The notes beneath the pieces are model-generated. The model made no database searches. It had not been told where the DNA came from and saw only the letters and a list, made by a program, of their open reading frames with translations. From Rhodosporidiobolus odoratus (taxonomy: Eukaryota > Basidiomycota > Microbotryomycetes > Sporidiobolales > Sporidiobolaceae), in NCBI GenBank assembly GCA_034387635.1, contig JAOANU010000015.1, forward strand, positions 434,001 through 498,000: a DNA stretch of 64,000 nt, given 5' to 3'. Below, one piece after another: positions 9,654 to 57,800 of this stretch (positions are counted from its first letter, which is position 1; the number at the start of each line of letters is the position of its first letter). The translations under genes and the position numbers were made by a program.

Positions 9654-11094
9654 ATGGCTCACCGTGTCCGCCTCCCTCCGCCTCTGCTCTACCCTGGATC
9701 TTCATCAACTCCCCTCCGCCTCGCTGCTCAAGCCCCGTACGACCCATCTGTTTCGGCTAATCCTCCTTATGTCCTCCATACTGTACCCTTCCAAGGTGGC
9801 TACCTCTGCAGCGGCTCCGACGACTCCATACGAGCCTTCTCGCCTACTCTACAACCTCTTGCCAAGCTCAAGTCGACGCAGAAGGGGATAACGAGCATCA
9901 CAGCCGGCGCAGGGATGGATAGCAATGTCGTATTCGTGACGGCGAAAGATGGAACGGTTGCCGGATGGGACACTAGGGACCTTTCTAAGGAAGCTTTCAA
10001 GCTGAAGAGTGTGTTGTCTCCTGTTCCGTTTCCTGTAGTAGGCTGATAGACAGAACCCCACAGGCAAGAGCGGCGCGGGCTACTTGTGTGCTTCGCAGAG
10101 TAGCGACTTGTCAGCGCTGGCGGTCGGAACGGAACTGTACCACTACGAAGCGATGATTGACATCTGGTACGCCGGTCATTGCTGCATCTACGACTATTGC
10201 CGCTCAGTTATCTTGTACACAGGGACCTCCGATCTATGAAGATACAGCACACCTATACCGAAGCCCACTCAGACGATATCACCGCCGTTTCTTTCCACCC
10301 CTCCCCTACACTTCCGCACGTCCTCCTTTCCGCCTCTGTCGATGGTCTCGTCACGACCTATGACGTACGGATAGCAGACGAAGACGATGCTGTGCAGAGC
10401 ACTTCGCAATTTGGCTCGAGTTTGGCTCGGGCAGGGTGGATGCCGTTGAAGGGGCAGGAGGGGAGTCCGGACTTCAAGGGTGTGTATGGTTCGACGACGA
10501 TCGAGACGCTGCAGTACTGGGATGTCGAGCAGGTGCGCTGCCGCTCTATTCCTGGGTCGACGTCGAATGACCTTCTCTGTTCTCTCGAGCAGCAAGATCA
10601 AATAGTCGACTTTGGCGATGTTCGGGATGTGGCCTTGCAACCCTGGCGGACGGACTACCTCATCGATACACACTACAATGCTGCCCTGGGAGGGGTCTGC
10701 CTTTTGGCAGGAACAATCTCGTGAGCCTTCTTATCCGGTCTTCCCCCGCCCTTCTTCCTTATCTCTGCATCCGCATCCCGTCTTCCCAGCTTCTCACGCT
10801 GACGTCTTTTCGACTGGGTCCGTGTAGAGGTGGAGTGGCTTTAATCAACGCGTCAGATTACCAGCGGTGGACGCTCGAGCAGCACCTTCCCAGCGCCGGA
10901 GGTCGAACACTTGCGACGAACCGAGGGCATACCGACATTGTGCGAGCAGCACATGTCAATGGCGAGGTGAGCTGTCTCCGTTTTTCGACAGGCCAGCATG
11001 GGCCGTTGCTGACAGTCGTCGTCTTTCTTCTGCACAGACGGGAACCGTCGTCACTGGTGGAGAAGATGGGCAGATCTGCTTATGGACTATCTAG
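9654..11094 (+). CDS. WD40-repeat protein, WDR89-like
   Basis: A single beta-propeller protein of about 400 residues. Repeats seen in order: GGYLCSGSDDSIRAF, VVFVTAKDGTVAGWD, SALAVGTELYHY, HSDDITAVSFHPSPTLPHVLLSASVDGLVTTYD, and a last repeat GTVVTGGEDGQICLWTI ending at the stop. The stretch reading DYLIDTHYN..GGVCLLAGT and GHTDIVRAA resembles WDR89-family proteins, whose role is poorly known (putative nuclear/nucleolar scaffold). At least five short introns interrupt it; the acceptor at about 10827 joins LLAGTIS to RGGVALINASD. It follows RTF1 on the same strand after 299 bases and ends close to the remnant of a MYND gene on the other strand. Confidence 0.8.
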
Positions 11095-14741: not shown

Positions 14742-15397
14742 GATGTTAGCGTGGACTATGAACAGTGCCTCGGTAGTATTTTATCTGTTTGTTCAACGCT
14801 GTACGCATCTGTTCGCTACGTCTGCCCACGCCTTCGTGCGTTTGCCGTAGCTGCTGCTTCCAGAGACCACAGCGAATAGTGGCTTCGTGGGGTAGCACCG
14901 GGGCGAAAGCGCTGAGACCGGTGTAAGCAGCTCGTTCCCGAGTTGAGAAGGTCCAACCTGTTCTCCTCCTCACCATCACCTGGGACCGACTTGGCGCACT
15001 TTCACGCACGATGACAATCTCAAGAGCACAGGGTAATTGTTGCAAGTAAGGTACTATGTATGCGAGAGGGGGTTGCGAGCTATGTAGACTAGGGGAGGGG
15101 GATTACACGAGAAACAGGTGAAGAGCATATAGGACAGGTGTATGTGCACGACGACAGGGGAAGAGAGGAGGGGAAAGGGAGAACTACTGTTGATATTTAC
15201 CGTTGGCAGAAGAGGAGGAAAGGGAAAAAAATGTACGGCGAAGGGGATGATGTCATCCAAAGGAAATGACGACGGTGGCGGGCGGTGGGGTGGACGATAT
15301 GTACGAGTACGCCAGGTTGTCGCCGTGAGGGAAGCATGTATCTACATTTTGCGGTGTGCGGCGAGGGATGGGAGCGCTACTGATGAGGCGGTGCTGT
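14742..15397. other. Tail-to-tail intergenic region
   Basis: 656 bases between the SAF1-like stop and the stop of the small minus-strand gene. Small open frames on both strands show no domain, no family resemblance and no consistent splicing. Expected to hold the two 3' UTRs; nothing else seen. Confidence 0.45.
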
Positions 15398-23867: not shown

Positions 23868-23995
23868 GAAGGCGATGGAACGATGCAGCCAACGAGACAT
23901 GCACAAGTAACCGTTTCAGGCACTGCGACGCCCTTGAGAAGGTCAACCGAGGAAATAGATTCGAAGTACCGGGTACAGTTGAATTGCCACCGCCG

Positions 23996-36814: not shown

Positions 36815-39800
36815 CTACAAGCGACTCTCGACCCACCCACGCTCGCCATCTCGGTGCCTCACCCCAACCTTACCCGCAAACACCGTCTTCAGCGCCTCTT
36901 CCACCCTTTGAACATACACGAACTCAACCTCCGCTTTTACCGACGCGGGAATGTCGGATTCTACGTCCCGCTTGTTACGAGCCGGGAGGATGAGAAGCCT
37001 GAGACCGGCACGGTGGGCGGCGAGAACCTGCGCAAAAGGAACAGGGTTAGCAAGGCCTGGGAGAAAAGGAGAGGGTACTATACAGCGGAAAGCGCACCTT
37101 TTCTCTGATCCCGCCGACCGGAGTCACTGCGCCGCGTAGGGTAATCTCTCCTGTCATACCTACGCGAGGGACGGTAGGAATGCCAGTCACTGCACGGAGA
37201 TGGGCAACCAGAAGGAAGCAAGAACAGTCAGTCGCTCTGCATGCGAGTCGAAACCGGAGTTGAGAGCAACTTACTCAGCGAGACGACCGCCACTGCCATA
37301 GCCACCCCCGCACTCGGTCCATCCTTCTTGACCGCCCCAGCGGGCAGGTGCAGGTGCAAGTCAAGGTTGCGGAAGACATCCTCCTTAACGCTCGCAGACA
37401 AGCCAAGCTCATATGCGTGGGCTTTGGTCCACGCTACTGCGACGTGTGCTGACTCGCTGATGACTTCGCCGAGTTGACCGGTCGTGTGAAGCTTGCCGGT
37501 ACCGGGGAAGGAGGCAGCTTCGATGTCTGAGAGGGCGGAGAAAAGGCAAAAGCACCAAGCCGTGCATGTCAGCCTCGCTGCGAGCTCCGAGCGAGACACT
37601 GAAGGAAGACGCACGCAAGATCCCTCCGTTCCCACTGCCCTGGTAAGCGAGCCCAGTCGCAACCCCGACCCTGTTTCCTTCCTTCTCCGCCTCCTCCGGA
37701 TCCCACCTGCTGTTTCCCAAGATCCTCTCAACGTCTTCCTCGCCGACCTCCGGGATGTACCCTTTCGGCATTGAACCGTTTGCCCTCAAGGGACTGGTGT
37801 GCTCGCGTGCCTCGGCGTACTCGACTGCTTTGGCCCGACAGACTGCAGCGAGTTGCCGTTCAAGCGAGCGCACGCCGGCTTCGCGAGTATAGTGGGTGAT
37901 CAGGAAAAGTAGAGTAGAGTCTGAGAGGGTGAAGAGGGAAGGGGTGAGGACGTGTGCAGCAAGTTGCTTTGGCAAAAGAGACTGGCGGGCTATGCGAAGC
38001 TTTTCCTCATGCTGGTGGGCAGAGCAGTTCAGCTAGTAACAGGGATAAGGAGGTAAGGCAGGCAGACATACGACATAACCACTTAGCTCGACGGCCTCCA
38101 TCCGGTCGTAGAGCGGTTCCGATATTGAGTCAAGCTGATTTGCCGTAGCGATGAAAAGGACCTGGGAGAGGTCGATCGGAATGCCCAGCTGCACACACGA
38201 TGCATAAGCAGAAAAGAACGACACGTGTGGGCGGAGCGACATACGTAGTGGTCGCTGAAGGACCAGTTCTGGCTCGGATCAAGCACTTCAAGCAACGCGG
38301 CATCCGGCGACCCACGAAGGGTGTCGTGGCCAATCTTGTCGATTTCGTCCAGGAGAATGATAGGGTTCTGCGTTCCAGCTTTGATGAGCGCAGAGACGAT
38401 CTTTCCGGGCATGGCGCCAACGTAGCTGTCGATCGAGAGAAAAGACAGAGGACCTGCTCGTCAGGCTGGCTCGCGGGTAAATCTTATAAAGAAGCACCAC
38501 TCACGTCCTCCGATGACCCCTGATTTCTGCCTCGTCTCTCACGCCCCCCAGGCTGATCCTCACAAACTTCCTGCCCATGGCCTCAGCCAGGCTCCTCGCA
38601 ATGCTGGTCTTGCCAACGCCTGGCGGACCGTGCAACAAGAGGATGGGTGCGGGGTGAGGCGATGGAGCCTGGGCGGAAGGCTCTAATGGCAGAGACGGAA
38701 CGAGCGATGTGGACGGATCCCGAAGAACCACGGCTGTCTCGGTTGAAGGAGCGAGGGCAGCCTCGGTGGCAGAGGCAGTAGCAGCAGCGAGGGAGGAGGA
38801 AAGCAAGACATCGGCTTGTTCCGACTGTAGGCGGAGAACTGCAAGCCATTCAAGCAAGCGCTTCTTGATCTTGTCTGTAGGAGTGGCGAGGCGCGAAAGA
38901 AACAGAGTCAACGAAGTCGACCTTCTCAATCTCGACGCATTCTCCGTTACAAGAGGAGGCGGACAGATTGTGAGACGCACCCAGGCCATAGTGATCTTCG
39001 TCAAGTTTCTTGCGCGCTTTGGCGATGAAGTCCTTGTCCTTCGGGAGCTGAGTCGAGTCCGCAGCGGTCCAAGGAATAGCGAGTAGGGTTTCGATGTAGT
39101 TACCTGCACATGGAACAGCTTCAGCGGTTGAGCTGATGAGTCGGACACTGGAGTCACCCAGTCAAAGGTTCGGGAAGGACGTACGGATGACCCCATGCTC
39201 CGCTCCCTGTGGAGGACTCTTCTTGAGCCTCTTCAGTTCTCGAACCGCAACCTTCTTCGCCTCCTCCGAGAACGCCTTCACTTCAATCTTCTTCTCCAGC
39301 TCTCTCATCTCATCTTCCTCTTCGGCTTCTTCATCTCCACCAAGAGGCGCTGACTGCGAGCGTGATGAGCGGCTCCTTCCCGTCGACGGCTTGAGCGGCG
39401 AGCCCGATCCGATGATCACGGGCGAAGGTTTCTTCGTCGTGGCAAGCTCGTCCAACTCTTGCCTGATGGCAAGTAGCTGCTGCATGAGGACGTACTCCCT
39501 CTGCCTCCTTTGCGTATCCTTGTCGACCCGGTCCTCGATCCGCTTTGTCAGCTTGAGAGCTTCGGTTTCGCGCGTGAAGAGCTCGATGCCTTTCTTCACT
39601 CGGTCGACGGGATCCAGAAGAGAGAGGACGAGCAGTTTGTCGGCGTAGGTGATACCCGTCGAGGACTGGGAGAGGGGGATGGTGCCGATCAACGCGTCGA
39701 CGAAGGACGCGGCGCTTGACAGCGAGAGGGCGGCTAGTAGCACGCGGAGGCGTCGCACGAATGGGAAAGGAAGGATCGAGGAGGATGACAGAATAGACAG

Positions 39801-43104: not shown

Positions 43105-45916
43105 TGGACGAATCCTGGGCTTGGGACGGCTCACTCATCTCCCTGACAGCCTCGTACCCGTCCTCCAGAGCCTCCAGTAATCCGTCTCCGCCGATCCGCA
43201 GTCGCGTCGCCTCCACCCATTCCCTCACTTCGTCGGTCGAAGGCCCACGGCCTCTGGACGTTGTCGGACTGCCCTCACCAAGCACACCGGAGCCCGACCT
43301 GCTGGTCACGACACCAACCGCACCGCCTCGCGCGATTGTGAGAAGCGAACGAACCCCTCCGCCTCCGCCTCTCCCAATCTTCTCGAGCATTCCACTTTCG
43401 CCTACTACACCCTCTGAGGCGCACGATACCTCTACGCATCCTTCATCTCCTCCCTTCGCCACCTTCCTTCACGCCGAGCACTCTTTTGGGCTATCACCTC
43501 CCAACTCCCCCACACACTCTGATCCGTCCTCCGCAACCGGCTCGAGAGGCCGCGACGGCTCGAGCGCGGCGTCGAGCGCTCGTAGAGGGAGAGGAAAAGG
43601 TAGATCCAGAGCTGGAAGCGTCAGCAGCACGGCCAGTACCGATGGAAGCGCTCGAGCGGGCGCCGCGGAGAGTCTGGCTAGTGGCGAGATGAGCAGCGGC
43701 GGAGAGGACGACTACCACCACGCGGCCGCAGGCGGACTTGTCATGCCATCGCTGCACCTCGGAGGCGCGTCGGCGCCACCGGCAACGCGCAACGCGTCTG
43801 GCGAGGCTAAAACTCCCGAGGGGAAGAGACCAAAGATGCTGGTACTGGGAAAGACAGCAGAGGAGCGACGGACGCTTGCTACGTTACTTGCTGTCGACGA
43901 AGACGCTAGCAAGTCACATAGCGGGAGCTCCGATACTGGAGTTACCGATATGAGCTACTCGTTTCTCTCGACACGACCTTCACAACGGTCCAGCTCGCAT
44001 TCTCGCTCTGTCGCCGCGGCCTCTCCACCAGAGTGCGACGTGTCCAGCGCTTTTGAGCTCCTGCTCCCGGCTTGTTCCGACAATGCGACCCATGCCCCGG
44101 CTTTCGTCGAGCTTTCCCACCCCACGCCCTCCTTCGAGATCGATATCGCCCGTATCACTCAAGAATTAGCCAGGCCGCTCAACATGCTCGAGGCGAAGCT
44201 CGTGCCGACCTACCCGGCGACGACAGGGCTAGCAGCGCTCGTAGAACAAGCAGGATGTGGGATGTTTGATGCCGCTTTCTTTCTGTTTTCATCCCGTAGG
44301 CCCCGTTCATTCTGTTCTCTTCGGATTGTTTACTGGCTAATCTCACTATTGTGACAGCTCCGACGCACGCCGAAATCTCCGTCGCTCGCCCTTTCTCCCA
44401 CCTCATCCCGCTTTACCCTGTCCTTCTTCTTCCACCATTTCCTACGGGCAAACCCCAGAAGACATCTGCACTGGAGCAAGCCGTGAAGGACCAGCTAGAC
44501 AAGGCAGGTCTGCGGTGGCTCCCTGCCATCCGGGTGTCGTGCCGTGAGCGAGGAAACGGGAACAAGTCGGATGGACTGTATATGCTGCCTCACGACCTTT
44601 TCGTCCACCACCCTCCCCATGCATCTCCCTTCACAGGCCCCCCTTCCGCGCCTTCCTCTGGCTCTGGTTCCGCCCTGCCGACCGCACATTCCACCCAGGC
44701 TTCCTCCCCTTCCTCCGAAGGTCTGCCCGTCTCCAGCCTGCATTCCAAGCCAATCTCCCTCGCATCATCACAGGAGCTCCCTCCACCTCCCCTCTCTCCT
44801 GCCTACACCGCCGCTTCCTTCTCCTCCCCCCGCAGCGACAGCGGCAGTCGATCCCTCTCCCTCTCCTCTCGTGGCGGATCCTCCTCCTCACGCTCATCCT
44901 CTCGAGGGCACTCTCGTCGACACGCCCGAGGAGGCAGCAGGGACGAAGAGTATAGCAATTCGCTCGCATCGCTGTATCGCCTTCAAGCGTTACTACACTC
45001 ACCCGATGCGCCTGGTGAACTACGCAAAGCCCGAGTGCAACAGTTCTTAGAGTGGAGGGAGGTTGAGCTCGCCGCGAGAGGTGTGATCCCGCTCGAAGTG
45101 ACGAGTCTGCCTAAGGAGTGGGGTGAGAAGGAGGTCGAAGCCGCCGGCGGGAGACGGGACATCGACTTTTCGAGAAGAGTAGCAGAGCGACGGGTCGCGC
45201 TAGCCGGATCATACGAGCCGGCGCTCAGACTATCGAAGGACGATGACGGGGATGTCTTGTCCAGCAGTGAGTCTGAGCCCGACGAGTACGACCGGGAAGA
45301 CGAGGACGCGGACGAGATCGGTCGCGCAGGCGGAACAGCCCGCAAATCCTTCTCTTTCTCGACTTCTTCTCTCGATCCTACTACGCCTCGGGTCGCCCAT
45401 CGTCCTCTTGCACCCTTCTCCGACTCCTCGGGCTCTGGGAATGGTAACGAGGACCTGAGCAGCTGCGGCTACTTCCCTGCTTTCCCACCTCCGCCTCCGT
45501 CCTTCGCCCTTCCACTCGACGCCTCCGTCGCATCCCTCACATCTACCAGCTCGACCAAGTCAGGCAGCGAGATGACCGCCTCGTCTATCTTCCTCCTCTC
45601 CGCTGCGGCAAGCGATCCATTTCACCTTCCTTCTCTGCTTCACCTCGTTGGCCTCAACCTTCGCCTCGCCGTTTTCTCACCGTCCTTCGCTGCTTCGCTG
45701 CCAGTCTCGCCGTCGCCACCCTCAGCCGCGTCGAACCGACTCGACCTGCCGACCAAGGAACGGAAGAAACGCCGCGCTGGGTGGGGCTGGGCGCGCACTG
45801 CAGCGCTTGTGGGCGTTGTCTTTGCTGCTGGGGTAGCAGTCGGCGTGACTGCAGCTGCAGCGGCGGATGCGGAAGCTGGTGGGCTCGGCCGATGGGTCGG
45901 CATTTCTCGCGCTTAA
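43105..45916 (+). CDS. Large low-complexity protein, possible degenerate septin-like domain, C-terminal membrane anchor
   Basis: Not firmly recognised. Two exons joined over an intron of about 60 nt (about 44296-44357, ending GACAG) give roughly 915 residues, starting MDESWAWDGSLISLTASYPS. The first 240 residues are Ser/Pro-rich. Then KMLVLGKTAEERRTLATLLA resembles a P-loop strand and helix but lacks the GxxxxGK[ST] glycines. FDAAFFLFSS|PPTHAEISVARPF and HLIPLYPVLLLPPFPTGKP resemble the septin region around the G4 motif, again without the nucleotide-binding residues. A long Ser/Arg/Glu linker follows, and the tail has a basic KERKKRRAGWGW stretch plus one hydrophobic segment (ALVGVVFAAGVAVGV) before the stop. 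The picture is a membrane-anchored pseudo-GTPase; the septin relation is an inference from pattern only. Divergent from ADE12. Confidence 0.6.
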
Positions 45917-46639
45917 TGTGTATCTGTACTCAAGCGAAGGGCGAAGTCGGACGATGATTGATTGTGTTGCTTGTACAGTCTTTTTCCTCTTTCCCCATTA
46001 TCTTCGACTCTCGTGTTTTCTCCATCTCTCGTCTCTGTTGCCTCTTCTTTTTCCTCTTCCACTGCCTGATGTCGTACTCTTCGTAACTGTCTCTTCCGTC
46101 TGTACTGTTCTCCTATCCGCCTTCTGTCGTAGTCTTGCCTAGTCTCTAGTGCTACTCTACTTTTCGCCAACAACTGCAGCTAGATCACGCGAGGCGGACG
46201 AGCTGAAGGAGACTTGGTCAGGCCGGCTGATCCCGCAAGCTGGGCCTATCATCCGGTTCAGAGCGTCAATGGAGCCGAACTGTTCGAGAGACTGACGGGT
46301 GCACACTTTACAGCCTGTTCCGACAGTCAGAATGAGCGGTTGAAGAGCCAAGAAAAGGCGGGCCGTCAAAAGTCTGGTTTTTGTACTGCTACTGAGGGAA
46401 GCAGGCCTTGTGAGCGTCGCGGATGAGTCGTCAATCGCGCTCGAGGTGCTAGAGCGTATTTTGGCCACTGAACGGCACCTGCTCTCGCCAACACAACGCG
46501 GACGACGTTGAAGATGACCGTCTCAGCGCTGGCTTTCCCATCGCAGTGTCGCCAGCGTCCTAATAAGCCCCCGCATTCCTCGCAGTACTGTAGAGAACAG
46601 GAGCTATAGCGTGCGGCTCCCGCTACTAGCGAGCGTAGG
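45917..46639. other. Intergenic stretch with one orphan exon-like frame
   Basis: 723 bases between the large septin-like gene and the ADE12 duplication. The first 200 are very T/C-rich and probably the 3' UTR. On the minus strand 46157-46291 begins right after a CCGTCAG acceptor, reads SLEQFGSIDALNRMIGPACG then ISRPDQVSFSSSASRDLAAV and ends VGEK-stop. This looks protein-like, but no upstream exon or family could be named. Confidence 0.35.
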
Positions 46640-47056
46640 ACGGGTTCGATGGCAGCGGGCGAGCGAAGTGAAGGAAAGTCGACGGGGCTGAAGAACGCCG
46701 ACGGCGGCTCGAGATGGGCCGAAGCTCGCAGCGTCGAGAGATGTAGCGGCTGGTGACCATCTGAGTGCCTCCCTCAGGTAGACCAACCAGCAGGACACCA
46801 GATACGAGATCAACTTGCCTTCCTGCAGAAGATCGAATAAGCCAGTGTCTGATCCACAGGACGAGCTGAAAATTCGAGAGGGGACGCACATCCCCCCACT
46901 GTGCGCCTAAGACCACAGAGGCTGTATTGGGCGGTTGTGCCATGGTTGGCGAGACGAAGACGAGAGCGAGTCAATCGAAGACTGGTTTCTTCTGCGTGGA
47001 AATTCTGATAAAGGGCTGGCAGGATAGCACAAGCTTCGGATTTCTCCCTAGTAGTC
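46640..47056 (-). repeat. Segmental duplication copy 2 (detached ADE12 promoter, exon 1, intron 1)
   Basis: Second copy of the ADE12 5' region. ATG at 46943, MAQPPNTASVVLGAQWGD, followed directly by a canonical donor GTGCGT, then a 66-nt intron ending CTGCAG, the 4-nt GAAG (46819-46822) and a GCAAGT donor. The next ADE12 exon is absent on this side; reading through meets stops. It is thus a truncated gene copy that still carries good splice signals. It ends 61 bases before the left attachment site of the mobile element array. Confidence 0.88.
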
Positions 47057-47117
47057 CACCTTGTCTCATTACATCTGTACAGCTCGGAACATAGCATACT
47101 GCAGGAGAGGCAAATCG

Positions 47118-47130
47118 ACCTTCTCAAACC
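47118..47130 (+). repeat. Attachment site, left end (attL-like core)
   Basis: ACCTTCTCAAACC. To its left is unique flanking DNA (AGGCAAATCG); to its right the element starts with CGTCAGTCCGG. The same 13 bases recur at 50862-50874 and 54609-54621. Confidence 0.9.
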
Positions 47131-47195
47131 CGTCAGTCCGGACTCGGAATTTTTTTGGCAGGGCGAGTCCAGCCGAGTCCGACGGACTCACGGGT
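47128..47195. repeat. Imperfect inverted repeat at element left end (copy A)
   Basis: The arm 47128-47147 (ACCCGTCAGTCCGGACTCGG) pairs imperfectly with 47173-47195 (CCGAGTCCGACGGACTCACG then GGT), leaving a loop of about 25 bases with a T-run. Such symmetrical sites next to a crossover core are typical recombinase binding arms. The same structure is in copy B at about 50872-50939. Confidence 0.75.
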
Positions 47196-47337
47196 GAATA
47201 ATCTGACTTATCATATAGTCTGCATGGAATAACTTCGCTTATCATCTACACCTTACCTTCAATACCAGAGAGGGGAAACAGTCAAAGGGATAAGAAGCAT
47301 GCCCCCTTTCCCGCCTCTTCTCATCTTCCGCACATCA

Positions 47338-50115
47338 TGCCTCCCGCTTCTTCTTCACGCTCGAGCAAAGGGAAGCGAGCAGCGCCGTACACAGCACCCT
47401 CAGCAACAGCCTCACCGTCTCGCTCGTCCGCTACGAGGGCTGCTCAGGGAGAGTTGCGGTTGGCCGAGGTTTCCTCGCCAGGTGTACGAAGAAAGCAGGG
47501 CTGCTCGCAACCCGAACACGATCAGGGCGTATGAGCGGAAGCAGAAGGCTTTCCAGGAGTGGTGCGATGGTTTGGGACTGGGCATGAGCGGGTGCGTTGA
47601 GTTTTTGATACCTGCTGTGAGCCGATTGTCGAGCTGATCTGCCTCGGCTTTCGACCTAGACGTGTTGTTACTGGCGAGAAGCTTGTAGCTTACCTGCGGG
47701 AAGTCGTCATTGGGCGTGCACCGCAGAAGCGCGGCCCAAAGTCGAAGAAATCGACTTTGACGAACAAGGGAGGGAAGGGCAAGGGCAAGGAGAAGTCGGC
47801 GTCGCTTCCCCCAGGGAACAATAGCGATGAGGAAGACGAAGATGGCGCAGAGGATGGTGTCACAGCTGCTGAAGGAACAGATGGCATTGCTGCTCGTGTG
47901 TTACCTTTCCTCTGGGTTTTCTCGCTATTTCCGCTCATTCTTGCTTTGATTGCAGCTATCGCCCAGAAGGTCATCTCAGGCGCCGTAGTCGAGCAAACTA
48001 TATATGCCATCGTCGATCTATGGCGAGAGCAGCAGGCTCTGGGCATGAACACCTTCGAGAATCCGGGAAAACATCCGGCGGTCAGGTTGATCAAGGAGGG
48101 TTATGAGCGCTCAAAGCATCAGCGGAAGCGCGACGCTTTCACAGATCGAGGTATTGGTACGTGCTCTGCTCCTTCTGTGTACCGTGAAGGTTGTAGGACT
48201 AATCAGCACTGCTCATTTTCGGGCTCTCTACAAGATGGTTACACCACAACCGAACAATTCTCCGCTCTCCTCACTTCCTGCATGAAGCGCGACACAGCAG
48301 AAGGTCTGCGTGACCGCCTCGCTTTCTGTATCGGTCACTACGGTATGCTGCGGTCAAGCAATATCCTCGCCATCGAGCTCGCCGACACTTTTGCCGTTGA
48401 TCTCCCCAAAGAAGGGCCCACTCCCTCGTTTGCCGTCGTAGTCATTCTCGATAACGGCAAGACCAACAAGGACGGAAGGACGGAGTACGCCGCTTTCACT
48501 CGGCATGAACAGGCGGAGGTATGCGGGGTTGGCGCTATGGGCCTCTATCTCTTTCAACGGTGCGGTCACGGTCACTGTCCCTGTCATTGAGTCTTGTACA
48601 CTGACATGCTTGTATCGTCAGCTTCCAAGTTTCCCAGGAGTCCTTTCCACCCGACAACACCCAATTCCCTTCTTTCGCCACATCTGAAGATTGGTTTACT
48701 CTCAAGCTCCTTTTCTCCGCACTAATCCCTTCGACCCCCTTCTCTATAAGACGTTCAACGCCTCTGTTCAACGCGCCAAGAAAGCCACAAAACTTCCCAC
48801 CAAAGCCGTCACTCACATCTTTCGAGGCAGCGGGTCAAGGATGGCGGACTTGGGAGGGGCAGCCAAGGCGGACATTCGATCAGCAGGCCGGTGGAATGTG
48901 GATGCGGTTGATCGATGCTACTTGACGGGGCTAGCAAGAGAAGTGATCCGAGTTCATGCCGGATTTGATGCGAGAGGAGGAATGTACTTTTTGCAACGCG
49001 ATATCGAGGTGCCCGAGGAGTTGCTGCGTCAAGTCTTTCCGGAAGCGGATGAGTGGTGCGTATTGAACAGCCTCCTGTCCTCCCACTTTCACGGACAATC
49101 CGGCCTATCCTTTGCCTCCTTTTACCCGCCTCCTTCTTCCTGGCCCGTCAAGCAAACAAGTGCTAATATATGTCTCTCTTCCCTTTCTTCCCTCTCTTCC
49201 CTCTCTTCCCTCTGTCTGTTCTGCTTGTCCACTTCCGATGCCCGTAGGCTCCACCGCCTCGAAGAAGGCGATCGTGCCCTCCCCACCATCTCCGCAATCA
49301 ACTTCCTCAGACTCCTGCTCCGCCTTCGCCCGGTCATCATCCAAGACGCAGCTTGCATCCGTGCCACCTATTCGACGCACCCTATCTTCCTGCACCCTCT
49401 TTTCTCTTCCCCCGCCTTCCTCGCTTTCGAACAGCACATGAAGCAGCATCTTTCGACGGTGCAAGACCCTTTTGCCCTTGAGCTTGAGCGTGTTCTTCCC
49501 CTCCTCACCAAGCACATCGACACTGGCTTCGACCATCAACGCCAGCAGCTTCTTCAGCTCATCAATATCGTCTCGACACTTTCTGAGAAAGTCGAAAAAT
49601 CCGGTTCTAGCAGCCACAACCTCCTCTCGGACGTGCTCAACGGTCGCGTCGCTGTCCGACTACATGCTGAGACAGGTGGCGCTGATCCTGCGCCGTCCAC
49701 ATCTACCCCGACAGCTTCCACTTCCGCTGCAGCCTTTCCCTCGACCTGCGCCTTATCCTCGCCTGTCGCCCATGCCCTTCCCCTTGAGCTCAACGGGGCG
49801 CTCAAGACTGTTGATGAAACCTGGCGGGAGTGGACAGAAGGTGTGGGTGGGCAGAAGAGTATTGAAGAGGCTTACCCGGAGGGAAGCGAGGAGTTGAAGA
49901 AGTTGCGGAAGGTGGACAAGCTAAGGAAGCAATGGGACAGGAAGAAAGCTGTGGTGGATAAGGTAAGGTGGATCATGAAGAAGAAGAAGGTTACTGGGGA
50001 AGTAGCGGTCAAAGCCCTCGATACTTTTCGGAACCAACAGAAGAACAAAAGCCTCGACGCTCTCCGCAAGCTACTCAAAGCAGACTTTTCGCTTGACATC
50101 CCACTTCCTGTATAG
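47338..50115 (+). pseudogene. Tyrosine recombinase with GCR1_C-like tail, copy A (frameshifted)
   Basis: Site-specific recombinase expected to excise and integrate the element. Order: Ser/Ala-rich N-terminus; core-binding helix VYEESRAARNPNTIRAYERK; after an intron VTGEKLVAYLREVV; a basic/acidic linker; QTIYAIVDLWREQQALGM. Catalytic part: RLAFCIGHYGMLRSSNIL (first Arg), HIFRGSGSRMADLGGA (H-x-x-R), GRWNVDAVDRCYLTGL (Trp and Tyr nucleophile). The C-terminal TWREWTEGVGGQKSIEEAYP and the basic helix after it resemble the GCR1_C DNA-binding domain. Six or so introns. Lesions here: an uneven base count near 47470-47476; intron acceptor CAG changed to CGG at 48220-48222 (the 66-nt intron stays open if retained); one base missing at 48718-48721 compared with copy B. 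From an alternative ATG at 47299 the N-terminal frame is open. Confidence 0.82.
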
Positions 50116-50861
50116 TCTTCTCTTCTTTCTGTCACTTTGAGTTTTCTTCCTTCTGTAGCTGCGGGCATTTGTCGTTGCAATCCTTTCTCGCTGTCGCTTT
50201 CTGTTCTTTGTCGGGTCCAATCTTCATTCCCCTGCAGTAATGAGACTGTTGCGGGAGTTGATGCCAAACCTTCTAGTGCGGCTACGGGCGACAGTTGCAC
50301 TGCATACCGCTTTGAAGGATAGCAGGATGCGGAACAAGGTCAAGAGCGGATGGGTGGCAGAGAGATCGGTCTGGGACGGCCCTCCGCTGCGCTGACATGA
50401 GCAGCAGGGGGTGTTTCCAGAGCTGAAAGAGGGACTAACACCGTGTCTGCAGGCGTAAGTCAGGTCAGAGTGCCATGACGAGGTCGTGAAGGGCAGCGCG
50501 AGCAGGACGAGGACGAAGCGCTGGTTGCGAGCTTGAAGTGCATAGTGAGAGGTCAGACGTACCTGAAGACTCCCAGAAGTACCCGCAGTGGGTATCCAAT
50601 TCAGCACGAGTTGCAGTCGATGAGAGAGACGGCGTAAACTCAAAAGCGGTGAGGTCAGGCGGTGCAGACGGGCAACAACATGCGGCGGTTACCACGCCTG
50701 TGTACCTTCTCTTGAGCTTTTTGATAGTGTAGATGTGCAAAGATTGAGGCTGAACAAGCGAGGCAACGAGCAAGAGAAGAGCGGACAGACTTATCCACAC
50801 GCAACCGGACTCGCCCAGAAGACCGAGTCCGGACTCTATGTGGGGGGGAGTAGATAATGTT
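50116..50861. other. Element tail, copy A, with possible antisense exons
   Basis: Non-coding tail of the recombinase gene and right end of the element. On the minus strand a frame (TAFEFTPSLSSTATRAELDT, HCGYFWESS) can be joined over a 116-nt intron (50447-50562; GTACGT...CTGCAG) to DTVLVPLSALETPPAAHVS and a stop at 50340. The splice ends are good, but no start codon or family was found. The last 55 bases hold the right subterminal repeat. Confidence 0.35.
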
Positions 50862-50874
50862 ACCTTCTCAAACC
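50862..50874 (+). repeat. Attachment site at the A/B junction
   Basis: ACCTTCTCAAACC between the right end of copy A (GATAATGTT) and the left end of copy B (CGTCAGTCC). Its left context matches that of the right-end site and its right context matches that of the left-end site, so it is the fused site expected between tandem integrated elements or in an excised circle. Confidence 0.92.
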
Positions 50875-51080
50875 CGTCAGTCCGGACTCGGAATTTTTTT
50901 GGCAGGGCGAGTCCAGCCGAGTCCGACGGACTCACGGGTGAATAATCTGACTTATCATATAGTCTGCATGGAATAACTTCGCTTATCATCTACACCTTAC
51001 CTTCAATACCAGAGAGGGGAAACAGTCAAAGGGATAAGAAGCATGCCCCCTTTCCCGCCTCTTCTCATCTTCCGCACATC

Positions 51081-53862
51081 ATGCCTCCCGCTTCTTCTTC
51101 ACGCTCGAGCAAAGGGAAGCGAGCAGCGCCGTACACAGCACCCTCAGCAACAGCCTCACCGTCTCGCTCGTCCGCTACGAGGGCTGCTCAGGGAGAGTTG
51201 CGGTTGGCCGAGGTTCTCGCCAGGTGTACGAAGAAAGCAGGGCTGCTCGCAACCCGAACACGATCAGGGCGTATGAGCGGAAGCAGAAGGCTTTCCAGGA
51301 GTGGTGCGATGGTTTGGGACTGGGCATGAGCGGGTGCGTTGAGTTTTTGATACCTGCTGTGAGCCGATTGTCGAGCTGATCTGCCTCGGCTTTCGACCTA
51401 GACGTGTTGTTACTGGCGAGAAGCTTGTAGCTTACCTGCGGGAAGTCGTCATTGGGCGTGCACCGCAGAAGCGCGGCCCAAAGTCGAAGAAATCGACTTT
51501 GACGAACAAGGGAGGGAAGGGCAAGGGCAAGGAGAAGTCGGCGTCGCTTCCCCCAGGGAACAATAGCGATGAGGAAGACGAAGATGGCGCAGAGGATGGT
51601 GTCACAGCTGCTGAAGGAACAGATGGCATTGCTGCTCGTGTGTTACCTTTCCTCTGGGTTTTCTCGCTATTTCCGCTCATTCTTGCTTTGATTGCAGCTA
51701 TCGCCCAGAAGGTCATCTCAGGCGCCGTAGTCGAGCAAACTATATATGCCATCGTCGATCTATGGCGAGAGCAGCAGGCTCTGGGCATGAACACCTTCGA
51801 GAATCCGGGAAAACATCCGGCGGTCAGGTTGATCAAGGAGGGTTATGAGCGCTCAAAGCATCAGCGGAAGCGCGACGCTTTCACAGATCGAGGTATTGGT
51901 ACGTGCTCTGCTCCTTCTGTGTACCGTGAAGGTTGTAGGACTAATCAGCACTGCTCATTTTCAGGCTCTCTACAAGATGGTTACACCACAACCGAACAAT
52001 TCTCCGCTCTCCTCACTTCCTGCATGAAGCGCGACACAGCAGAAGGTCTGCGTGACCGCCTCGCTTTCTGTATCGGTCACTACGGTATGCTGCGGTCAAG
52101 CAATATCCTCGCCATCGAGCTCGCCGACACTTTTGCCGTTGATCTCCCCAAAGAAGGGCCCACTCCCTCGTTTGCCGTCGTAGTCATTCTCGATAACGGC
52201 AAGACCAACAAGGACGGAAGGACGGAGTACGCCGCTTTCACTCGGCATGAACAGGCGGAGGTATGCGGGGTTGGCGCTATGGGCCTCTATCTCTTTCAAC
52301 GGTGCGGTCACGGTCACTGTCCCTGTCATTGAGTCTTGTACACTGACATGCTTGTATCGTCAGCTTCCAAGTTTCCCAGGAGTCCTTTCCACCCGACAAC
52401 ACCCAATTCCCTTCTTTCGCCACATCTGAAGATTGGTTTACTCTCAAGCTCCTTTTCTCCGGCACTAATCCCTTCGACCCCCTTCTCTATAAGACGTTCA
52501 ACGCCTCTGTTCAACGCGCCAAGAAAGCCACAAAACTTCCCACCAAAGCCGTCACTCACATCTTTCGAGGCAGCGGGTCAAGGATGGCGGACTTGGGAGG
52601 GGCAGCCAAGGCGGACATTCGATCAGCAGGCCGGTGGAATGTGGATGCGGTTGATCGATGCTACTTGACGGGGCTAGCAAGAGAAGTGATCCGAGTTCAT
52701 GCCGGATTTGATGCGAGAGAGGAGGAATGTACTTTTTGCAACGCGATATCGAGGTGCCCGAGGAGTTGCTGCGTCAAGTCTTTCCGGAAGCGGATGAGTG
52801 GTGCGTATTGAACAGCCTCCTGTCCTCCCACTTTCACGGACAATCCGGCCTATCCTTTGCCTCCTTTTACCCGCCTCCTTCTTCCTGGCCCGTCAAGCAA
52901 ACAAGTGCTAATATATGTCTCTCTTCCCTTTCTTCCCTCTCTTCCCTCTCTTCCCTCTGTCCCTGTTCTGCTTGTCCACTTCCGATGCCCGTAGGCTCCA
53001 CCGCCTCGAAGAAGGCGATCGTGCCCTCCCCACCATCTCCGCAATCAACTTCCTCAGACTCCTGCTCCGCCTTCGCCCGGTCATCATCCAAGACGCAGCT
53101 TGCATCCGTGCCACCTATTCGACGCACCCTATCTTCCTGCACCCTCTTTTCTCTTCCCCCGCCTTCCTCGCTTTCGAACAGCACATGAAGCAGCATCTTT
53201 CGACGGTGCAAGACCCTTTTGCCCTTGAGCTTGAGCGTGTTCTTCCCCTCCTCACCAAGCACATCGACACTGGCTTCGACCATCAACGCCAGCAGCTTCT
53301 TCAGCTCATCAATATCGTCTCGACACTTTCTGAGAAAGTCGAAAAATCCGGTTCTAGCAGCCACAACCTCCTCTCGGACGTGCTCAACGGTCGCGTCGCT
53401 GTCCGACTACATGCTGAGACAGGTGGCGCTGATCCTGCGCCGTCCACATCTACCCCGACAGCTTCCACTTCCGCTGCAGCCTTTCCCTCGACCTGCGCCT
53501 TATCCTCGCCTGTCGCCCATGCCCTTCCCCTTGAGCTCAACGGGGCGCTCAAGACTGTTGATGAAACCTGGCGGGAGTGGACAGAAGGTGTGGGTGGGCA
53601 GAAGAGTATTGAAGAGGCTTACCCGGAGGGAAGCGAGGAGTTGAAGAAGTTGCGGAAGGTGGACAAGCTAAGGAAGCAATGGGACAGGAAGAAAGCTGTG
53701 GTGGATAAGGTAAGGTGGATCATGAAGAAGAAGAAGGTTACTGGGGAAGTAGCGGTCAAAGCCCTCGATACTTTTCGGAACCAACAGAAGAACAAAAGCC
53801 TCGACGCTCTCCGCAAGCTACTCAAAGCAGACTTTTCGCTTGACATCCCACTTCCTGTATAG
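51081..53862 (+). pseudogene. Tyrosine recombinase with GCR1_C-like tail, copy B (frameshifted)
   Basis: Same gene as in copy A. Differences that matter: intron acceptor at 51961-51964 is a normal TCAG; the stretch LKLLFSGTNPFDPLLYKTFN is in frame (GG at 52461-52462); the N-terminal junction has two bases fewer than A (51213-51216), so VYEESRAARN is out of frame with both candidate start codons; an extra GA at about 52715-52718 breaks the frame just after the catalytic Tyr exon (HAGFDAR|GGMYFLQRDIEV in A). A two-base difference near 52961 lies inside an intron and should be neutral. Copy B thus has a better splice site and core domain but two frameshifts. Confidence 0.82.
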
Positions 53863-54608
53863 TCTTCTCTTCTTTCTGTCACTTTGAGTTTTCTTCCTTC
53901 TGTAGCTGCGGGCATTTGTCGTTGCAATCCTTTCTCGCTGTCGCTTTCTGTTCTTTGTCGGGTCCAATCTTCATTCCCCTGCAGTAATGAGACTGTTGCG
54001 GGAGTTGATGCCAAACCTTCTAGTGCGGCTACGGGCGACAGTTGCACTGCATACCGCTTTGAAGGATAGCAGGATGCGGAACAAGGTCAAGAGCGGATGG
54101 GTGGCAGAGAGATCGGTCTGGGACGGCCCTCCGCTGCGCTGACATGAGCAGCAGGGGGTGTTTCCAGAGCTGAAAGAGGGACTAACACCGTGTCTGCAGG
54201 CGTAAGTCAGGTCAGAGTGCCATGACGAGGTCGTGAAGGGCAGCGCGAGCAGGACGAGGACGAAGCGCTGGTTGCGAGCTTGAAGTGCATAGTGAGAGGT
54301 CAGACGTACCTGAAGACTCCCAGAAGTACCCGCAGTGGGTATCCAATTCAGCACGAGTTGCAGTCGATGAGAGAGACGGCGTAAACTCAAAAGCGGTGAG
54401 GTCAGGCGGTGCAGACGGGCAACAACATGCGGCGGTTACCACGCCTGTGTACCTTCTCTTGAGCTTTTTGATAGTGTAGATGTGCAAAGATTGAGGCTGA
54501 ACAAGCGAGGCAACGAGCAAGAGAAGAGCGGACAGACTTATCCACACGCAACCGGACTCGCCCAGAAGACCGAGTCCGGACTCTATGTGGGGGGGAGTAG
54601 ATAATGTT
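53863..54608. other. Element tail, copy B
   Basis: Same tail as 50116-50861, including the possible antisense exons (stop near 54087) and the right subterminal repeat near 54570-54585. No difference from copy A was noticed. Confidence 0.35.
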
Positions 54609-54621
54609 ACCTTCTCAAACC
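54609..54621 (+). repeat. Attachment site, right end (attR-like core)
   Basis: ACCTTCTCAAACC followed by unique flank (GGGTCTCCAATTTC). It is the third copy of the core and closes the array. Removing both elements would leave one core between AGGCAAATCG and GGGTCTCC as the predicted empty site. Confidence 0.9.
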
Positions 54622-54810
54622 GGGTCTCCAATTTCACCGCGCCTATGGTCCAGGCTGAGCAGACCAGGTACTAGCCGTCAGTGGGGATATGCCTGCCGTG
54701 AGTAGCACGGGCGTTGCGATGCACACCGCTAATAAGGAGATTCGGCTGCGTGAATACTGCAACAGGTACACTAGCTATAAGTCACTGTGGGCGACGGCAA
54801 GAAAAGGTAA

Positions 54811-57800
54811 CTAAGACGACGAGGCTGAAGAAAATCGAACAGGAATGCCATAAACAACGGCGGCGGCGCCGTTCAGGTACCGGAGGTTGCAGACGTCGCG
54901 AGACTGGGCGACAGCGGCAGTGAGGGAAATCGGAAGAGCAGGGAGCGTGGTAGGAAGTTCGGGTTCGGCGAGCCCGGTTTTGCGGAAGACGGAGAAGGCG
55001 AATTTGTCGATGTCTTTGTCCGTCACGTCCCACAGGTTAGCCACGAGGGTCGGGCTGAGAAAGGTTGATGGCAAGGTCAGCTACAACGACGTAATGAATG
55101 GTGGAAGGAAAACGCGTACCATCCAGCGACCATGTAGTGGTAAGGTGTGCCAACAGGGTCAAAGTCCCCCTGATCCTTGAGCATGCCCGACGAGCAGCCC
55201 CAGAGCATGGTGATGGCGCAACGAGGAAGGTGGCGGACGGTTTGAGAGCGCACGTATTGCTCAGCGCCGCCGTGTCCAAAGTAGCTGAAGGCGAGACTGA
55301 GTTAGTTGCCGCAACTAACGAAGAAGGGTATAAAAAGCGAGCGTACAGGAAGAGCTCCTTCTGTGAAAGGCCGGCCTTGACCTCCTCCTCAAGCGGCGCA
55401 CGCCCGACAATCCCGGTCCAGCCAGCTTGGTTCCGCTTTTCTTCCAACCAAGGCTCGAACACTTTCTGCGTGTTCTTGAGGTCGCCACCGGGGTTTAGGA
55501 CAAACGAAGCCCGACTCGAATTGACCACGAGATCGTGGGGCAGATCTGGCGAGGACGATTGTGTCGCAGCGTGCTCGAGACGATCACGCAGGAAGGCGAG
55601 GGAAGGGAGGCGGCTGATGGATCGGCCTCGCAGGCAAGGGAGGGACTCCCAGGGGAACGCTTGGACTGTTTTGTCGAGTATGAGGAAAGTGTGTTCATCC
55701 GGGTCGACGACGCGTTTCGGGGCAGACTTGGTTCCGTGCAGCTCCTCGAGTGCTTCGCGAAGGTCAACAACGACCTGCAACGTCAATGAGCGTAAAACGA
55801 GGACGCGCTTTAGCCTAATAACCGGGAAAGCGCACCTGGTCAACGTCGGTCTCGTCGTGCGCAAGAGGGACACCGCTGAAGTGGAAGGACTCGGCAGCAT
55901 AAGCGAAGAGATCCTCGAGATCTTCTTCTTGGGAGGTCGAAGGCAAAGCTGCGAGGCACTCGACAATAGCTTCGTCCAGTTTGAACCGGGCTGGCTTCCT
56001 ATCGCTGGATGCGCGCACCATACTGCGCTTCAGGATGCGTTCGAGGCGGGCCTTGAAGGAGGTGAAACCTTCGGGGGGAGCTTTGCGAGAGTCGTAGAAC
56101 ACGCTCTATCGGGACGAAAGCGGGTTCGTGAGACATCATGGCAAGGAGGATGTTAGCCAGGATGTTAGCCCGGGGAAACAATGCGCACCTTGAACGCTCC
56201 CAGCCAAGCCTTCTCCATCTGCGCCAACAAGTTTCCCAGTCTCGTATCCAGCTCCTTCCTCTTAGCCCACCAAGCAGCCCTTTCCTCCCTGCCATCAACC
56301 GTCTTAGCCTCCTGCGTCCCCCTGTTGCTCTCGTCGATGATATCTCTCAACTCCTTCGAAGCAACGTCATAAGTGAAGGCGTCATCTTCGCCCTCTCTCC
56401 TCGCGAGCCGGTCCAGAGGTAGCTTGAAGAGCAAAGGCTCGCAGTTTCGACGGTGGCGAACCAGGAGGAGCGAATCGTGCTCCGGGGTGAGGTGGATCGA
56501 GACGGCAGACCAGCTTGATGGGAGAAGAGTTGACATGGACGAGTCGGTCAAAGCGGGCTCGGCGCTCTCGAGGCGGTAACGGTCGCGGAGGGCGTGAAGT
56601 TGCGAAAGCGCCGGGTCGTCTCCTTTCGAGACTGCAGGCTGGGAGATCGTGGGCCACAGAAGGTCGTCGTGTCGGGATCCGTCGGCCAGCTTGTGCTCGA
56701 CAGCGTCGAGCATCTCTCGTCTCAGGGTGACAGCGGTGGCGAGGTCTGCGAAGAGAGGGAGCACATGTCACTTCTCTGCGAGACTGACGGCGATGCGGAG
56801 GACATACCGAGGATGTGTGCCACCGCGGCGGTCGAGTGCTTGGTGGACTTGCCCACACTGGCTTGTAGCGTCTTCATGCTGGCGGACAGCAAAGCTAGCT
56901 CCCTCAGCTTGGCCGGCTGCGAACGAGACGTGGTGAAGGCGATGGCCCGCGAGAGAAGCTGCTCGATGTCTTTGAGGGAGTTGAGGACGGTCGGGCCAGT
57001 ACGAGGAGTCCCAACCTTGACGATGGCGCCAGGCGCAGCGATTCCGAGAGCGGGCATGGAGAGTACTGAGGCATAACGCACAACGGGGTTAGCGCTCGAA
57101 CCGCGAGGGAATGTGGCAGAAATGGCGTACCAGAGTCAGGCAGCATGCCCAGGATGGGGTCGGAGCTGCAGCGGACCAGCAAATCCTGAATACGCAAGGC
57201 GGCAACGAGTTTGAGCTCGTCGGCCTTGTCCTCTTCCAGCGATGCGAGCTTGGAGAGGCGACGAAGGAGACGCTGAATCTCGTCGGCTTTGCGCTGGTTG
57301 TTCAAAAGGTGCACTATGAGGAACTGACTGTCAGAACGGTCAACAAAGGGCAAACGAGATAGGACAACGCACCCTGCATACGAAGTAGATAAGCGTGGAC
57401 CGCGGGAAGAACCAAATCGAGCAGCGTTGCGTGACGTAGCGCAGTAGGCGAAGGGGAAGGATGAGTGAAGTAAGAAGACCGGGCTTGAGCTGGTGAGAGC
57501 TGCTTGGCAGGGGTTTGTTGCTTGACCGGCCTGCTGCATAGCTTATCAGCGAGACCCGTAACCGCAAGCTATAAGGGCGATGAGGCAGATAGAAGACGTA
57601 CGATTGACCTGCTTCTCGCTCAACCGCGGTAGACACGAACACCTCGAGCGATTTCTGCGCGTTCAAGCACAGCTGGAAAGCCTCGTCGTGCATTTCGGCT
57701 CGAAGGTGCAGATCCGCCCTGAACCTGTGCAGCTCAGTCGCTTCGGGGCACGGTATCTGTATACTCCGGGTGTCAATGCCGTTACGCCGTAAGAGGAAAG

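Follow-up and report, generated by a model that had tools for sequence, protein, structure and literature searches.

How do two nearly identical Crypton transposons come to stand back to back, and what does their recombinase recognise in the host genome? The question is raised by a 64,000-nt window (the whole stretch of DNA analysed) of Rhodosporidiobolus odoratus, in which positions 47118-54608 hold two Crypton units in direct orientation. The genome searched comprises 24.8 Mb in 45 contigs. One host protein encoded in the window shares 80% identity with a protein of R. odoratus and 60% with one of R. nylandii, as fits a red yeast in or close to this genus. Our answer, to which we give a probability of about 0.8, is that a CryptonF recombinase integrates the element precisely at GRCCTTCTCAA, an over-represented host motif that is used as attachment site and rebuilt.

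Tandem units bordered by one core

The sequence ACCTTCTCAA is present at all three borders of the array (left, between the units and right), and the flanking DNA outside the borders is not alike. The first-pass annotation set its interval at 47118-54621, from the start of ACCTTCTCAAACC at the left outer border to its end at the right one, and its claim of two direct 3.74-kb units with only five differences is borne out by the alignment and the border cores. The alignment gives exactly five internal differences, one single-nucleotide polymorphism (SNP) and four insertion or deletion (indel) events: a TC indel at 47472-47473, G/A at 48221, a G indel at 48718/52461, a GA indel at 48971/52715 and a CC indel at 49215/52961.

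47118..50861, + strand: Crypton unit 1, 3,744 bp
50862..54608, + strand: Crypton unit 2, 3,747 bp
47117..47127, + strand: left junction GACCTTCTCAA, G being target-derived and ACCTTCTCAA the shared core
50862..50871, + strand: middle core ACCTTCTCAA, common to both units
54609..54618, + strand: right junction core ACCTTCTCAA; identity extends through ACC (54619-54621)

Precise insertion at the core

The genome search detected eight full copies of the element at seven loci (L001-L008, the window pair included); the six outside the window each have other flanks. Any two of the eight copies are separated by 0-10 substitutions and 2-7 indel events, and all eight carry ACCTTCTCAA as a direct repeat at both ends. 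A related second group consists of three copies 99.3-99.7% alike and one of ~81%, together with a truncated copy and a lone left end. The left-end pattern (at most two mismatches) occurs at 14 genomic places, and the right-end pattern at 12 exactly and at three with one or two mismatches. The base preceding the core, in the outer left flank, is G at 7/7 loci of the window element; across the group as a whole, CCTTCTCAA is preceded by GA or GG in 12 of 13 targets, and the 12 exact right ends carry TTA. Such retention of the target base at the left junction is expected if the strands recombine inside the shared core. The lone left end (L015, C1:349289-349315) and the truncated related Crypton (L020, C7:870673-870699) both begin at the CCTTCTCAA core.

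For the 11 sites (out of 13) that have a right end, the two flanks were joined and compared with the genome. This search detected two empty paralogous sites for the L007 site and one for the L016 site, in which the core occurs once and the flanks align through at 82.6-86.7% identity; it gave no empty site for the other 9 of 11 insertions. A single core in continuous flanks demonstrates that insertion is precise in the cases with empty sites (2/11 insertions). In the right flank of L016 (C4, ~1532.6 kb) the target lies in a 23-bp direct repeat, and an unused core is found 13 bp past the element.

An abundant host motif as target

The novel part of the finding is the target itself, an abundant motif with a 16-bp consensus matched by the left ends of the element. 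GRCCTTCTCAA occurs 1,694 times in the genome versus 32 for the reversed control and ~21 expected from composition, a ~50-fold excess. The excess of HACCTTCTCAA is smaller (342 versus 56 in the control), indicating that G is preferred. The motif is an abundant, apparently undescribed cis-motif of the host genome. Position by position, 36 sites (among them the three borders of the array and two window sites that lack GR) showed only a weak T before the core and NYYSS after it. Genome-wide, NYYSS follows the motif at 708 of the 1,694 sites, where chance would give 8%, and at 6 control sites. All five left-end groups, representing four distinct sequences, fit NYYSS, and therefore the left junction rebuilds the full 16-bp consensus. 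Three motif sites lie in the window outside the array:

14943-14951: motif site
23934-23942: motif site
38921-38929: motif site

The recombinase might instead recognise only the 9-10 bp core, the genomic abundance being a coincidence with no tie to host function. The core indeed suffices for the borders. In addition, two observations speak against the attachment-site reading as we put it: the right flanks of 5 of 11 targets depart from NYYSS, and the L020 target reads AA, not GR, before the core (1/13). However, 6 of 11 targets fit the extension as against 8% by chance, and the motif is ~50 times over-represented, its 16-bp extension being matched by the left ends in 5/5 groups; recognition of the core alone is thus unlikely. 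Another explanation is that the motif is no host signal but Crypton-derived, a remnant of attachment sites or element ends, as its core is found at element borders. This we regard as very improbable, since information at the 36 sites is low more than ~5 bases away from the core in either direction (0.36 bit or less past +15), precise excision restores a site and adds none, and the 1,694 motifs far outnumber the left ends (14) and the exact right ends (12).

Integration at the motif could proceed as follows. The element would leave as a circle, whose joined ends would form an attP, ATAATGTT-ACCTTCTCAA-ACCCG. The recombinase, aided by binding to AGTCCGGACT palindromes, would swap strands within the shared CCTTCTCAA, and the left junction would again read G-ACCTTCTCAA-NYYSS, the host motif after the upstream gene being rebuilt. 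The AGTCCGGACT palindrome, a putative accessory recombinase-binding site, lies near each end of both units, and it also occurs once in the window outside them, at 10464-10473. The left end of unit 1 holds in addition an imperfect inverted repeat (fold of 47128-47200: z -3.78; 0 of 200 shuffles equally stable).

47135..47144, no strand: palindrome AGTCCGGACT, unit 1 left end, 7 bp inside the left core
50826..50835, no strand: palindrome AGTCCGGACT, near unit 1 right end
50879..50888, no strand: palindrome AGTCCGGACT, unit 2 left end
54573..54582, no strand: palindrome AGTCCGGACT, near unit 2 right end
47128..47195, no strand: subterminal imperfect inverted repeat, unit 1 left end

The motif and the 3' flanks of genes

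To place the motif relative to genes we used a hexamer coding score, trained on the retrieved DNA and applied to 38 sites: 27 from the start of contig 1 (no random sample; L046 and L047 overlap), eight added sites, all on the + strand of contig 1, and three window sites, the borders of the array (three) and two weaker window matches not being counted. Also dropped beforehand were L038, for its overlap with L037, and the pair L022 and L023, nearly identical to L021. The best upstream frame lay on the motif's strand at 30/38 sites (20/27 + 8/8 + 2/3; p 0.0005); a first coding score gave 22/27 and the retrained score 20/27 at the same sites, and the later figure is used. Downstream frames showed no preference (17/38 on the same strand), and coding was sparser within 250 bases of the motif than further away. 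At the insertions, the best left frame was on the same strand in 11 of 13 cases (p 0.02). Pfam matched six of 20 frames beside motifs, five of the 17 same-strand upstream frames (one below the curated cut-off) and one of the three others; one frame, which contains the end of a HlyIII domain, has its stop ~320 bases before the motif.

Together these placements suggest that the motif is probably a signal of gene 3' flanks, acting in RNA or DNA. Several points count against this. The best upstream frame is on the opposite strand at 8/38 sites, as is the best left frame at 2/13 insertions (L007, L019); the motif lies inside frames at L056 (same strand), L035 and L049 (other strand); the L007 insertion site may, by eye, be coding; and the 3'-flank placement was obtained with a home-made coding score. 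A further reading, to which we give slightly less than even odds, is that the Crypton reads a host gene-end signal: its recombinase would recognise the 16-bp sequence that a host 3'-end or termination factor also reads, with ~1,700 landing sites, and tandem stacking would be built in. As the left end of the element brings the downstream half of the consensus with it, each insertion would in this reading rebuild the signal behind the upstream gene, and integration would be nearly neutral.

The element belongs to CryptonF

That the element is a CryptonF transposon, encoding an Ndc10-like tyrosine recombinase with GCR1_C, is well supported. The spliced protein of copy L003 matches NDC10_II (7.5e-46) and GCR1_C (1.4e-10) in Pfam, and the window's own frames match GCR1_C at 4.5e-11 and 2.1e-11. 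Among 12 homologues, the box I R is present in 7/7 covering rows, H in 11/12 and the second R in 12/12, while Y and W are kept in 11/11 rows covering them; the best fold match of homologue P0003 is to Ndc10, with Cre and Flp also matched. Against the assignment, the Phage_integrase model (PF00589) reached only E 0.1 on the L003 protein. The domain matches, the conserved R, K, HxxR, W and Y and the homologue fold support the first-pass annotation of a Crypton with an R...HxxR...Y tyrosine recombinase. It had also noted no other transposase in the units, and a Pfam scan of nine frames from both units indeed detected nothing besides NDC10_II, GCR1_C and a SCAMP match under threshold. No inverted pairs of at least 30 bp were found in 45000-57000 (shorter ones were not searched), and the unit ends are direct repeats.

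Two other classes were rejected. Starships are marked by a DUF3435 captain recombinase and large cargo; here the Pfam matches at E<=1 were only NDC10_II, GCR1_C and the weak Phage_integrase, in a 3.7-kb unit with one recognised gene. A DIRS/Ngaro retrotransposon was discarded as there was no reverse transcriptase match in the L003 protein or the nine unit frames.

According to PMC3212892 and PMC7175516, CryptonF elements (Crypton-Cn1 of Cryptococcus neoformans and others) encode a tyrosine recombinase with C-terminal GCR1_C and lack terminal inverted repeats; their short direct end repeats are regarded as recombination substrates, and Crypton targets and integration were deduced from repeats of 4-6 bp. 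The present element likewise combines recombinase and GCR1_C with short direct end repeats and no terminal inverted repeats. It differs in that the end repeats are 10 bp, versus the published 4-6 bp, and lie within a 16-bp consensus, the 11-bp heart of which has ~1,700 genomic sites, and in that tandem units with every border visible and empty sites were found. With the Crypton-derived host genes Cbf2/Ndc10 and Gcr1 it has domain families in common, the P0003 fold being nearest Ndc10; unlike them, it keeps R, K, HxxR, W and Y.

The nearest homologues belong to R. odoratus (63% identity across the searched region) and Sporobolomyces johnsonii (70% across 58% of that region). The former, JCM11641_007367 (P0001), has both domains; it is annotated as a hypothetical protein, and its model lacks the stretch bearing the box I Arg seen in other rows. 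These neighbours agree with the proposal that the element is specific to this lineage, while distant homologues in Phenoliferia and Tilletia limit it. Of the suggested new Crypton family it holds that the element is new, as a member of a known superfamily. An Ndc10/recombinase-like gene at L053 (C10, ~713.5-715.1 kb, minus strand), with no GCR1_C match nearby and with R, K, HxxR, W and Y kept by eye, is perhaps a lone Crypton or a domesticated recombinase.

The recombinase gene in the two units

A six-exon gene model was built on copy L003, and the exon coordinates in units 1 and 2 were obtained by alignment.

47299..47591, + strand: unit 1 exon 1, from the first ATG
47660..47895, + strand: unit 1 exon 2
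47956..48156, + strand: unit 1 exon 3
48221..48222, + strand: unit 1 intron 3 acceptor, GG in place of AG, private to unit 1
48223..48559, + strand: unit 1 exon 4, box I Arg and catalytic Lys motif NGKTN
48622..49055, + strand: unit 1 exon 5, HIFR (HxxR), GRW and Tyr; frameshifted in unit 1
49248..50115, + strand: unit 1 exon 6, GCR1_C and stop
51043..51333, + strand: unit 2 exon 1, 2 bases short of its length in most copies; early stop in the frame
51402..51637, + strand: unit 2 exon 2
51698..51898, + strand: unit 2 exon 3
51965..52301, + strand: unit 2 exon 4, part of NDC10_II
52364..52800, + strand: unit 2 exon 5, private GA insertion past the active-site Tyr
52995..53862, + strand: unit 2 exon 6, GCR1_C and stop

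The gene is recognisable in both units, but the earlier statement that each encodes a spliced recombinase goes too far: unit 1 lacks the intron 3 AG and is frameshifted, unit 2 has early stops, and the gene is intact in neither. One copy outside the window has an open six-exon frame. Interrupted copies, including both window units, would rely on recombinase supplied by another copy.

Origin of the tandem

Because an insertion always leaves two cores, a resident copy could be joined by a further circle; the tandem would arise when a second circle, or a dimeric circle, enters beside that copy. Unit 2 differs from L002, on another contig, by no SNPs and three indel events, and from unit 1 by one SNP and four indel events. 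Being no closer to unit 1 than to L002, unit 2 mildly favours two separate arrivals. A second, unrelated Crypton (L051-L052, C2:339515-349287), with GCR1_C and NDC10_II matches, also forms a tandem pair, of 4.88-kb units 99.6% alike with 6-bp borders TATATT, TACATT and TACATT.

Alternatively, the tandem could result from unequal crossing-over, in-place duplication of one insertion or an assembly artefact. The closeness of the units is in line with duplication, as is an A at element position 1981, common to both units and to only one other copy, L002. Against duplication stand the distance of unit 2 from unit 1, no smaller than that from L002, and the tandem state of the C2 Crypton, which integration beside a resident copy predicts; against an assembly duplicate, each unit has private differences absent from the other seven copies, and the six further full copies elsewhere have other flanks. 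Taken together, these origins seem rather unlikely.

In the closest copies (L001-L008 and the C2 pair), small indels outnumber substitutions (L002 versus L004, for example: no SNPs, three indels). Several insertions in copies are short perfect duplications (TCAAGTCT, CAGC, GTAA), as if left by staggered-cut repair.

The right neighbour of the array is a separase gene (Peptidase_C50, 8.5e-43; window 55037-56029, minus strand), the last exon of which, read by eye, has its stop near 54811. As the gene is on the minus strand, its 3' end faces the tandem Cryptons.

Significance

In the open-licence literature searched, including the available portions of PMC3212892, PMC7175516 and PMC12093110, we found no tandem Cryptons and no Crypton targeting an abundant genomic motif. 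The first-pass remark that tandem Crypton arrays are rarely described agrees with this, although this same genome holds a second tandem pair. Crypton integration chemistry and targeting become testable here, given several families, empty sites and a target of great abundance. The finding also suggests that these red yeasts have an abundant cis-element that has apparently not been described. A common motif just after genes could offer the element many low-damage landing places and, if the motif is a gene-end signal, a tyrosine-recombinase transposon would find safe sites via a host regulatory sequence.
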